From Flavobacteriales bacterium (GTDB taxonomy: Bacteria > Bacteroidota > Bacteroidia > Flavobacteriales_F > PHOS-HE28): DNA of 50,294 nt. Location: assembly GCA_018057455.1 (NCBI GenBank), contig JAGPDT010000020.1:1-50294 (forward strand), in the 5' to 3' direction. How positions within the stretch are numbered: position 1 is the first letter of the stretch; each line of letters starts with the position of its first letter. Below the pieces are notes generated by a model. That model was not told where the DNA came from, did not search any database, and worked only from the letters and a program-made list of their open reading frames with translations. Shown one piece after another: positions 23,644 to 26,052 of the stretch. The position numbers and the translations under genes were made by a program.

Positions 23644-23738
23644 GTTGGTGGGGGATTTGGCCCATCGAATGTAAATACATCCTCCAGTTCAACATCCATC
23701 GGGGCGCAGTGCTATCTTTCTTTCCATATTGGCAAGGA

Positions 23739-25595
23739 ATGAACACCTTCGGAAGGAAGCTGGTGTTGCTGATGCTCTTGGCGGCGATGCACCCCTCTGC
23801 AGGGGCATCAGTCCTTGCAGGCCAGGTGGGCACGCCGCTCTCCCACGCCGTGGACGGGCCGGATGACCACAGGGCCGTTGGCAGCCCCGCCAGGGCGGAC
23901 ACCACCCTGGCCGATACCCTATCATCGGCGGAGACCTTGGTGAAGGACAGCCGCGCCAAACAGCTCAAGGGCGATTTTTTTGGTGCCATTGCCGATCTGT
24001 ACAAGGCGCTGCGGATCTACGAAACAGTGCAAGACCAGGACGGCATGGCCGAGGTGTACAACGCGATCGGCACCATCCACCACTACGATCACAATTACAA
24101 ACAAGCCCGGTCCTTCTATGATCGCAGCCTGAAGATCCGGCAACAACAAGGCCGCAAACAGGAAATCGCCATCCTGTACGGCAACATCGGAAGCTTGTTG
24201 GAGGTGATGGGCCATCCGGACAGTGCCTTGGCCTACCACCGGAGGAACCTGCAGCTCCGCCGGCAACAGGGCGCGGGGCCATGGTTGGCCATTTGCTACG
24301 CCAACTTGGGGGCCTGTTATGGCAAATTGGGCCAACGCGACAGCGCGCTGCACTACCTCCGGCACAGCTTGGAACTGGTGCGTACTTCCGGCGGGCCCAG
24401 GCTCCGCGGCAGTGTGCTGGCCATGCTGGGCCAGGCGGAGTTGGAAGGCGGGGCGTTCACCCATGCGGTGGGGCACTGCGAAGAAGCCTTGAAGCTGGCC
24501 CGGCAGACCGGTGCCTTGCCCGGTGTGGAAGCAGGCTTGGATTGCCTGTACCAGGCCTATTCCGCCATGGACCGGCCACGCCAAGCCCTGGCAACGCTAC
24601 AGGAACTGGTGGCCGTGCGCGACAGCATGTTCGGAAAGGAGCGCACCAAGGGCTTGTTGAAGGTGGAATTGGATTACGCCCATGAGCGGCAGCACTTCGC
24701 CGACAGCCTGGTGGCCGTGGACCAGGAGCGCAAGGCGCAGTTCGCCTACTTGCAGGGATTGCTCAAGGAGCGCAACCAGAAACGACTGCTCTTCCTTGCC
24801 GCATTGGCCGTCGTGGGCGTGGCTTTCGCCTTGTGGAGCCGGTTGCGGTTCATGCAGCGTTCACGCAACCGCATCCGGCACGAAATGGACCGCAGCGAAG
24901 CTTTGTTGCTCAACATCCTGCCCCGCCCGATCGCGGTGGAACTCAAACGCAATGGACGGGTCGTAGCGCGGGAAATTGCCGGGGTTTCGATCTTGTTCAC
25001 TGACTTCCATGAGTTCACCAAGCTCAGCGAACGCATGTCCGCCCAGGATCTTGTGGAGGGGATCGACGTGTGCTATCGTGCGTTTGACGACATTGCCTCA
25101 CGCCATGGGCTGGAAAAGATCAAGACCATCGGCGATGCGTACATGTGTGCAGGGGGGCTGCCTGCACCTCAGCAAGGCAGCGTGCGCAGCACCGTGCTGG
25201 CGGCCTTGGACATGCAGGCATGGATCTCCGGCCATTGCCAGGAGCGCGAACGCATGGGGCGGCCCGGGTTCCGCATGCGGGCGGGGATCCATACGGGCAC
25301 GGTGGTGGCGGGCGTGGTGGGCCAGGCCAAGTTCCAGTACGACGTGTGGGGCGATACCGTGAACACCGCTGCGCGGTTCGTGTCGGCAGGGGAGGTGGGT
25401 GAAGTGAATGTCAGTGAAGTCACCCGCTCACGGCTGCACGGCGATGCCGATTTCACGTTCATCGCCCGTGGAAAGATCATGGCCAAAGGCAAAGGCGAGA
25501 TGGAGATGTTCTTCGTGCGGTTGGCTGCCGCGGACCCGCCAGGCAACGGCGATGGGCAGGCCGGCCGGCTGGCCTCCGTGTCCCGCGGTGGTTGA
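23739..25595 (+). CDS. TPR-containing class III adenylate cyclase
   Basis: A 618-residue protein. Signal peptide about 1-25; extracytoplasmic TPR region about 60-310 with several 40-residue repeats (for example AEVYNAIGTIHHYDHNYKQA, AICYANLGACYGKLGQ); one membrane helix about 350-368; then a cytoplasmic class III cyclase domain (about 408-600). Metal aspartates are present (Asp422 in FTDFHEF, Asp466 in TIGDAYM), as are the transition-state Asn and Arg (VNTAAR). The purine-selecting pair is Lys (EKIKTIGD) and Asp (QYDVWGD), the adenylate-cyclase combination. Predicted role: turning a periplasmic protein-protein signal sensed by TPRs into cAMP. The start at 23739 is preferred over 23709 because it begins the signal peptide. 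A -7-like TATCTTTC (23712-23719) lies 19 bases upstream. Confidence 0.9.
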   Translation: MNTFGRKLVLLMLLAAMHPSAGASVLAGQVGTPLSHAVDGPDDHRAVGSPARADTTLADTLSSAETLVKDSRAKQLKGDFFGAIADLYKALRIYETVQDQDGMAEVYNAIGTIHHYDHNYKQARSFYDRSLKIRQQQGRKQEIAILYGNIGSLLEVMGHPDSALAYHRRNLQLRRQQGAGPWLAICYANLGACYGKLGQRDSALHYLRHSLELVRTSGGPRLRGSVLAMLGQAELEGGAFTHAVGHCEEALKLARQTGALPGVEAGLDCLYQAYSAMDRPRQALATLQELVAVRDSMFGKERTKGLLKVELDYAHERQHFADSLVAVDQERKAQFAYLQGLLKERNQKRLLFLAALAVVGVAFALWSRLRFMQRSRNRIRHEMDRSEALLLNILPRPIAVELKRNGRVVAREIAGVSILFTDFHEFTKLSERMSAQDLVEGIDVCYRAFDDIASRHGLEKIKTIGDAYMCAGGLPAPQQGSVRSTVLAALDMQAWISGHCQERERMGRPGFRMRAGIHTGTVVAGVVGQAKFQYDVWGDTVNTAARFVSAGEVGEVNVSEVTRSRLHGDADFTFIARGKIMAKGKGEMEMFFVRLAAADPPGNGDGQAGRLASVSRGG

Positions 25596-25662
25596 CCTGG
25601 TGAGGTGTGCAAGCTGCTGAGACCTTTGAAAGGGGCGCAAGCCAAGCCCACTATTGCTTTCA

Positions 25663-25697
25663 CGGCAGGGCGATCATCACGTGCCCGGGACTGGACT
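25663..25697 (-). repeat. Diverged copy of tRNA-Leu 3' end plus downstream flank
   Basis: These 35 bases match 25949-25983 with two mismatches. The match covers the 3' acceptor/T-arm end of the tRNA-Leu gene and the first arm of its terminator. The rest of the tRNA is missing. Confidence 0.75.
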
Positions 25698-25760
25698 TCC
25701 CGCATCTTCGCAAGCTCCGTGCGGGATGAACTTCCCGCCGGTGGCTTTCCTCCGGAAAGC

Positions 25761-25790
25761 GGAAAGGCTCCGCATGAGCGGAGCCTTTCC
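25761..25790. terminator. Strong bidirectional hairpin
   Basis: GGAAAGGCTCCGC-ATGA-GCGGAGCCTTTCC is a perfect 13-base stem with a four-base loop. Both sides carry short A/T-containing ends inside the stem. It is probably a terminator left from a tRNA-like unit, since a tRNA 3'-end copy sits just upstream on the minus strand. Confidence 0.55.
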
Positions 25791-25801
25791 GGTCACCTTC
25801 G

Positions 25802-25818
25802 GTGCCCAGGACTGGACT
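25802..25818 (-). repeat. Short copy of tRNA-Leu 3' end
   Basis: GTGCCCAGGACTGGACT is identical to 25967-25983, the 3' end of the tRNA-Leu gene plus one flanking base. The remaining tRNA body is not recognisable beyond it. Confidence 0.7.
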
Positions 25819-25854
25819 GGCTTCGCCGGACCAGGTTTAGCCGTGGAGTGGATC

Positions 25855-25885
25855 GCCCTGACGCTTCGCGTCACGCGGGCTTTTT
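25855..25885 (+). terminator. Terminator-like hairpin with T run
   Basis: GCCC-TGACGC-TTC-GCGTCA-CGC-GGGC followed by TTTTT. The inner stem is six pairs and the outer four, with a three-base bulge. On the plus strand the nearest gene is the cyclase 260 bases upstream, so it may end that transcript or be a relic. Confidence 0.45.
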
Positions 25886-25928
25886 CATACGCCGCTTCGC
25901 CCAAGCCTTGCTTGGCTCGCTGCGCACG

Positions 25929-25957
25929 AAAAAGCCCTGCCGCGTTCGCGGCAGGGC
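25929..25957 (-). terminator. Terminator of tRNA-Leu
   Basis: Read on the minus strand, GCCCTGCCGC and its complement form a stem of at least ten pairs with a four-base loop, followed by TTTTT. It begins 10 bases after the tRNA 3' end. Confidence 0.8.
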
Positions 25958-25967
25958 GATCATCAAG

Positions 25968-26052
25968 TGCCCAGGACTGGACTCGAACCAGCACAGCCTT
26001 TCGGCCACTACCCCCTCAAAGTAGCGTGTCTACCAATTTCACCACCTGGGCA
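25968..26052 (-). tRNA. tRNA-Leu (anticodon GAG)
   Basis: The minus strand reads GCCCAGG ... CCTGGGC-A, a perfect seven-pair acceptor stem with discriminator A. The D-arm has the leucine-type AATTGGTAGACACG. The anticodon stem CTACT/GGTAG encloses TTGAGGG, giving anticodon GAG. The long variable arm (TGGCCGAAAGGCTG) marks a class II tRNA. The T-arm GGTTCGAGTCC is standard. No CCA is encoded. 85 bases. Confidence 0.93.

Follow-up and report, generated by a model that had tools for sequence, protein, structure and literature searches.

The 3' ends of tRNA genes are classic landing sites of mobile DNA. Tycheposons are elements tied to tRNA genes; they leave partial tRNA remnants and carry recombinase genes. 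In Escherichia coli, the 178-bp repeats at tyrT/tyrV are associated with the RttR small RNA and with tpr; they stand in tandem with the tRNA 3' end, and in NC_000913.3 they are spaced 178 nt apart and run into the last bases of tyrV. REP and REPIN repeats, by comparison, are spread over intergenic space. They are short, non-coding and palindromic and occur in tandem; PMC3116915 and PMC3733652 deal with such repeats. Genomic islands and phages use tRNA and tmRNA 3' ends as targets (PMC9897764). In the archaeon Methanopyrus kandleri, a palindrome of some 20 nt lies about 10 bp behind about half of the tRNA genes and is reported as specific to that archaeon (PMC5217627).

We analyzed a window of 50,294 nt (the whole stretch of DNA under study, contig JAGPDT010000020.1 of the Flavobacteriales bacterium assembly GCA_018057455.1) in which a tRNA gene is followed by short, structured units, each ending in a copy of the tRNA tail. 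Like the tyrT/tyrV repeats, these units form direct tRNA 3'-end repeats in tandem, but they occur at many tRNAs rather than at one locus, and R2, one of two covariance models of the unit, gave no match in the E. coli locus even at E<=10, marking a different family. As with islands at tRNA or tmRNA ends, an intact tRNA lies on one side and a displaced tail on the other, and as with an attachment-site scar, the old flank has moved behind the second direct repeat. Unlike islands, the units contain neither integrase nor cargo, here or in relatives; between the repeats lies a structured, conserved body, in which a hairpin replaces the T-loop. Tycheposons are likewise tied to tRNAs but differ in their recombinase genes. 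REP/REPIN repeats share the short, non-coding, palindromic, tandem character but not the placement, as all eight matches in the window's own genome lie at tRNAs, and the M. kandleri palindrome has no reported tail copy. Our literature searches, mostly of openly available journals, turned up no description that we recognized as such units, which is weak evidence that they are new. In our judgment, the units at this locus probably belong to a family of short non-coding elements, here called tRNA-tail elements, that occurs throughout the phylum and whose members are added one after another at tRNA 3' ends.

The tRNA-Leu(GAG) locus and its tail copies

The only tRNA that ARAGORN found in the window is tRNA-Leu(GAG), on the minus strand. 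Read along that strand, the gene is followed by three stretches with copies of its own 3' end in between, and the features are as follows, with the basis of each in brackets.

25967..26051, minus strand: tRNA-Leu(GAG), the host gene (ARAGORN; Rfam RF00005)
25802..25966, minus strand: Unit 1 (E type), a complete tRNA-tail unit (covariance model matches)
25929..25957, minus strand: hp1, a GC hairpin with a T run, intrinsic-terminator-like, adjoining the tRNA (inverted repeat; sequence; fold)
25877..25937, minus strand: hp2, a long hairpin overlapping the 3' strand of hp1, with apical GAGCCAAGC/GCTTGGGC (inverted repeat; fold; covariation)
25859..25873, minus strand: hp3, a TGACGC-GAA-GCGTCA hairpin with a GNA triloop (sequence; fold; loop survey)
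25851..25858, minus strand: 3' strand of the outer stem, GGGCGATC, pairing with GATCGCCC at 25954-25961 (inverted repeat; sequence)
25812..25834, minus strand: T-arm mimic, CTGG, a GGC-GAA-GCC hairpin replacing the T-loop, CCAG (sequence; same design in relatives)
25802..25818, minus strand: Copy 2 of the tRNA-Leu 3' end, 17/17 (repeat search)
25681..25801, minus strand: Unit 2 (F type), displaced, beginning CGAAGGTG (sequence; relatives G032 and G004)
25681..25697, minus strand: Copy 3 of the tRNA-Leu 3' end, 16/17 (repeat search)
25656..25680, minus strand: third unit, E type, truncated, beginning GTGATGATCGCCCTGCCG (direct repeat; G004 has TTGATGATGAAGG there)

Unit 1 is a non-coding stretch of about 165 nt directly 3' of the tRNA, with copy 2 as its right end at a spacing of 148 nt, and it is matched by both models (R1 at 25812-25963 with 71.3 bits, R2 at 25812-25964 with 85.5 bits). 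From the tRNA outward, its parts are a putative terminator, two further hairpins, the T-arm mimic and the tRNA acceptor strand. With its GC hairpin followed by a T run, hp1 is a predicted intrinsic terminator, while hp2 and hp3 together present terminator-like signals on both strands. The outer stem (GATCGCCC/GGGCGATC) has 8 bp. At the right end, CTGG, the hairpin and CCAG followed by TCCTGGGCAC correspond to the T-stem and acceptor strand of the tRNA, with the hairpin standing where the T-loop would be.

The body of Unit 2 is unlike that of Unit 1, but its end is of the same kind, a second T-arm mimic (TCCCGCA at 25720-25726, TGCGGGA at 25698-25704). Other F-type units, with a T-arm-mimic ending as in the E type, were seen at L038, L043 and L061, the last of which lies at tRNA-Asp in genome G008 and bears the Asp tail. 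The third stretch corresponds to the first 25 nt of another unit of the Unit 1 type, and copy 3 is best read as belonging to an older unit than Unit 1. Beyond the array, positions 23709-25595 encode a TPR protein that also contains an adenylate/guanylate cyclase catalytic domain; its gene is convergent with the tRNA.

Both repeats named in a preliminary description of this DNA are real. The copy at 25802-25818 is identical over all 17 bases, and the 35-base copy reported at 25663-25697 extends to 42 nt at 90% (25656-25697 versus 25942-25983), covering 17 nt of the tRNA and 25 nt of the sequence behind it. The same description placed a minus-strand hairpin after each copy, which is right for copy 2, where Unit 2 holds a perfect 14-bp hairpin at 25760-25791, and wrong for copy 3, which is followed by only 25 nt of another unit with half a hairpin. 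It missed the hairpin mimicking the tRNA T-arm that precedes each copy.

The matches do not fall within chance, as had been raised as a possible refutation. The tRNA tail has two further occurrences in the 400 nt downstream (with 0 and 1 mismatch), whereas among 20,000 random 17-mers from the window 8 recurred at least once over the same distance and none twice; no further match to the tail at <=2 mismatches was found in the whole window on either strand. An assembly artefact fits poorly with the recurrence of the unit at this position in numerous assemblies, some contigs of which exceed 1 Mb, so that an origin of the repeats in chance or misassembly is hardly credible.

Decay of tandem tRNA-Leu genes, also offered in the preliminary description, would account for copies that are tRNA 3' ends in direct orientation. 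However, no second tRNA-Leu(GAG) was present in any of the 39 loci examined in the genus, nor was there another tRNA match in the region of the window; D-arm and anticodon arm are absent in front of the copies; and the same body stands behind different tRNAs. We regard this origin as very unlikely, and a tRNA pseudogene or tandem tRNA was rejected as a candidate for the copies, as neither arm lies upstream of them.

The same locus in relatives and an island at the same tRNA

When the 461-nt region was compared with 45 genomes of the genus, alignments in 15 of them ended near the end of copy 2 (query positions about 256-264). Six of the 45 genomes had no tRNA-Leu(GAG) locus to examine, and 20 of the remaining 39 loci carried a downstream tail copy (<=3 mismatches in 17). 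Several of these loci are tandem, including one in G024 with four copies 92-96 nt apart. The tandem 92-96-nt units of that locus (L011, 1762-2062) are little like the E type, and each ends in ATGCGGGA followed by the tRNA tail.

The flank that the window has after copy 2 adjoins the real tRNA itself in G032 and G021, and less clearly in G027. In G004 it instead follows the attR of an island of about 27 kb, where the order attR, CGAAGGTG.., F unit, copy, TTGATGATG is the window's order behind copy 2. Unit 1 plus one tail copy is thus exactly what sets the window apart from them. Such presence and absence is expected after an insertion, but a deletion between repeats would produce it as well. 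The position of this flank next to the tRNA end in G032 and G021 (less clearly in G027), and next to the attR in G004, supports the earlier idea of a ladder of successive tRNA 3'-end duplications.

The G004 island, a BREX defence island, shows that integrases do use this tRNA, as the preliminary description had proposed to check. It encodes BrxC, PglX, PglZ and BrxL, and next to attR a 413-aa protein that matches a PHROG integrase family; the protein has no Pfam match and is named from PHROG only. In our data the island spans L329 and L330 (G004:C96:52000-80000), is bounded by a long 3' tRNA copy and contains a further tail fragment (L042:3966). Its attR carries a normal T-loop. The island shows that tRNA-Leu(GAG) is also an ordinary integration site and that the units are something else, the island being an event separate from them.

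The preliminary description had suggested that the repeats may be old attachment sites that had lost their cargo. Support for such scars comes from the use of this very tRNA by a real BREX island with an integrase between tRNA and attR, and from three loci (L362, L367 and L376) in which a tail fragment, and no tRNA, lies ahead of the unit. The latter look as if later insertions had split unit from tRNA. In 39 of 45 genomes, however, the repeats enclose a body that is conserved and covaries, which scars of islands do not predict; nor do they predict a hairpin in place of the T-loop, which is normal in the G004 attR. Lost cargo is not supported, as what lies between the repeats is a non-coding unit found behind many tRNAs, and we consider island scars an improbable explanation.

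Structure, placement and distribution of the units

Sixteen units were aligned by plain MAFFT and their common fold was tested for covariation. In this alignment 80.9% of paired cells can pair, compared with 70.1% after shuffling, and 33 of 56 pairs have changed on both sides. The covariation score was 0.281 against 0.134 for shuffled alignments, none of 500 of which reached 0.281, and against at most 0.117 for slid ones. In the long hairpin, the sequence can differ completely while pairing persists. Overall, units are about 150-175 nt long. Right after the tail, a motif like TTGATGAT/TAGATGAT begins the units of L261, L276, L279, L286, L306, L307, L309 and L321, and such a motif may mark the left unit boundary.

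GNA triloops are especially stable in DNA. They close 55 of 175 hairpins in units, compared with 1 of 29 behind tRNAs without a unit and 9 of 156 in the background, a preference that hints at a single-stranded DNA role for the units.

Placement was surveyed with R1 and R2, which were run against whole genomes but built from tRNA-adjacent units, so that the scores of weak matches may be biased. In the window's genome, all 8 matches (E<=0.1) lie at the 6 of 37 tRNAs that carry a unit, namely, Leu(GAG), all four Ser and Pro(CGG); one of the 8 is the reverse strand of the window's unit and one a second tandem unit. Across the genus, 51 matches fell in 40 fetched regions, 39 of which hold a tRNA; in each of these, the start of the first unit lies -5 to +2 nt from the tRNA 3' end. 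The fortieth region is a contig end. Partial matches to the locus elsewhere lie behind tRNA-Pro(CGG), tRNA-Ser and tRNA-Asp, many with the tail of their own host.

Other genera gave the same picture, with 18 of 18 matches at a tRNA 3' end in one set and, for R1 outside the genus, 50 of 58 next to a tRNA by ARAGORN. Two of the other eight stand behind a tmRNA by ARAGORN (L301, L309), and inspection by eye found a tmRNA-like end at L275 and L325, a tail copy at L289, L313 and L328, and a tRNA-like end at L319. R2 placed 20 of 26 matches at a tRNA (4 of these places repeat those of the R1 set of 58); inspection of the other six by eye showed a T-arm or tail fragment ahead of five, and the sixth, L355, begins 95 nt downstream of its tRNA. 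In genomes reached through named records, 17 of 20 matches are at a tRNA, and the other three follow a tail fragment that no tRNA precedes. Hosts across genera include Asp, Cys, Arg, Val, Met, Gly, Gln, Lys and Leu tRNAs and tmRNA.

R1 matched 39 of 45 genomes in the genus (38 of 44 in an earlier draw) and 78 of 395 genomes, in 46 of 196 genera, in a class draw; the family and order draws held the window's genus only and added one genome. In a phylum draw of 395 genomes, 27 had an R2 match, and 9 of the 27 lie outside the class. Of 48 genomes found via named records, 13 gave an R2 match, including those of Gelidibacter salicanalis, Kordia jejudonensis, Polaribacter filamentus and Oceanihabitans sediminis. 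No R2 match was found in five genomes titled Kapaibacterium, Ignavibacteriae, Aminicenantes (two) and Acidobacteria, and R1 found nothing in 16 of 80 contigs that had been retrieved through a protein of the window.

In a search of a phage collection with the locus, the 20 matches listed cover only the tRNA part of the query, and a pattern scan of viral contigs returned two with the apical motif of hp2, neither of which had a model match or a tRNA in the stretch examined. A known RNA family was rejected as a candidate identity: apart from tRNA, Rfam (release 15) gave for the window only MIR820 (E 0.31, far under the gathering score), and for 13 loci only the antisense look-alike RF04351 and one RF02223 (L089), both below gathering.

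Tails, arrays and inheritance

Outside the genus, too, tail copies are specific to the host. The 16-nt T-stem and acceptor sequence is copied (<=2 mismatches) in 15 of 79 units, compared with a mean of 0.1% for decoy tRNA tails, and 31 of 79 units repeat the two T-stem strands (4+4 nt), compared with 10.7% for decoys. These counts exclude 23 of 102 outside-genus loci, where ARAGORN found no host whose T-loop could be read or where the unit signature was missing, and they include separately the four places common to the R1 and R2 sets. Full-length copies stand at the mimic end at a Kordia jejudonensis tRNA-Arg and at a tRNA-Gln of another genome, and at the tmRNA hosts L301 and L309 the tail copies are 16/16. 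The remaining 64 of 79 units have no long acceptor copy; the acceptor part decays, whereas the T-arm mimic is retained.

In 19 arrays, the last tail copy was more decayed in 12, less decayed in 4 and equal in 3; another 2 of the 21 arrays went unscored, and one last copy cut by a contig end was counted as most decayed. This pattern fits newest-first addition, but it would equally fit if the tRNA corrected the copies closest to it.

Within the genus, identity between units was 0.639 for the same tRNA in another genome (308 pairs), 0.541 for another tRNA in the same genome (131 pairs) and 0.522 for neither (1,514 pairs), and the nearest neighbor belonged to the same tRNA for 43 of 63 units. Units there track the tRNA locus and not the genome, so that they have mostly been inherited in place.

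One possibility is that the units are a fixed functional module, either a trailer or bidirectional terminator of certain tRNA genes or a small RNA transcribed in the minus direction, that is kept by selection and has its tails refreshed by recombination with the tRNA. In its small-RNA form, the 5' part would be antisense to the tRNA tail and the end would lie at the second terminator. Several observations suit such a module: the same six tRNAs of the genus (Leu-GAG, four Ser and Pro-CGG) carry units that resemble their orthologues, structure is kept while sequence changes, and hairpins with T-run signals occur on both strands. The host tRNAs, however, vary widely between genera, units are present or absent at the same tRNA among relatives, and the occurrence of tandem arrays and of F units, with an unrelated body but the same T-arm design, is not what a fixed module predicts. 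We consider this explanation unlikely, though less so than island scars.

A proposed model for stepwise addition

We return to the reading of the locus as tRNA-tail elements added stepwise. Each new unit would enter between the tRNA and the old flank, as an insertion of the attachment-site type would, and the terminator-like hairpin at its front, as predicted from its sequence, would let the tRNA keep a terminator wherever a unit lands. Addition would leave the intact tRNA in front and a displaced tail copy at the far end, where the T-arm mimic and the host's acceptor strand would form the right end and probably the recombination end. Repeated addition would produce an array with the newest unit next to the tRNA, here E, F and truncated E. 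Signals on the opposite strand could stop convergent transcription, such as that from the cyclase gene ending at 25595, and terminator activity on both strands, as predicted, may be a benefit of the units or the reason they are tolerated.

From sites with and without a unit we infer that units were inserted rather than only lost, although precise deletion between repeats would equally give the unit-less state; no enzyme, circular form or fresh insertion was found for the units. Movement between different tRNAs needs a re-copied tail, which ordinary conservative integration does not explain. We propose, tentatively and with less than even confidence, that the units are a novel kind of non-coding element, either selfish or domesticated, which has spread through the phylum, takes only tRNA and tmRNA 3' ends as insertion sites and restores both tail and terminator each time. 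Its T-arm mimic, formed from single-stranded DNA with GNA-loop hairpins, would serve as the recombination end, such that any tRNA could be a target and each unit would acquire the tail of its host.

The units offer a concrete handle on how the ends of tRNA genes are protected, terminated or invaded, and they would account for some of the apparent tRNA fragments in genome annotation. Their presence in cultured Flavobacteriaceae makes them testable.
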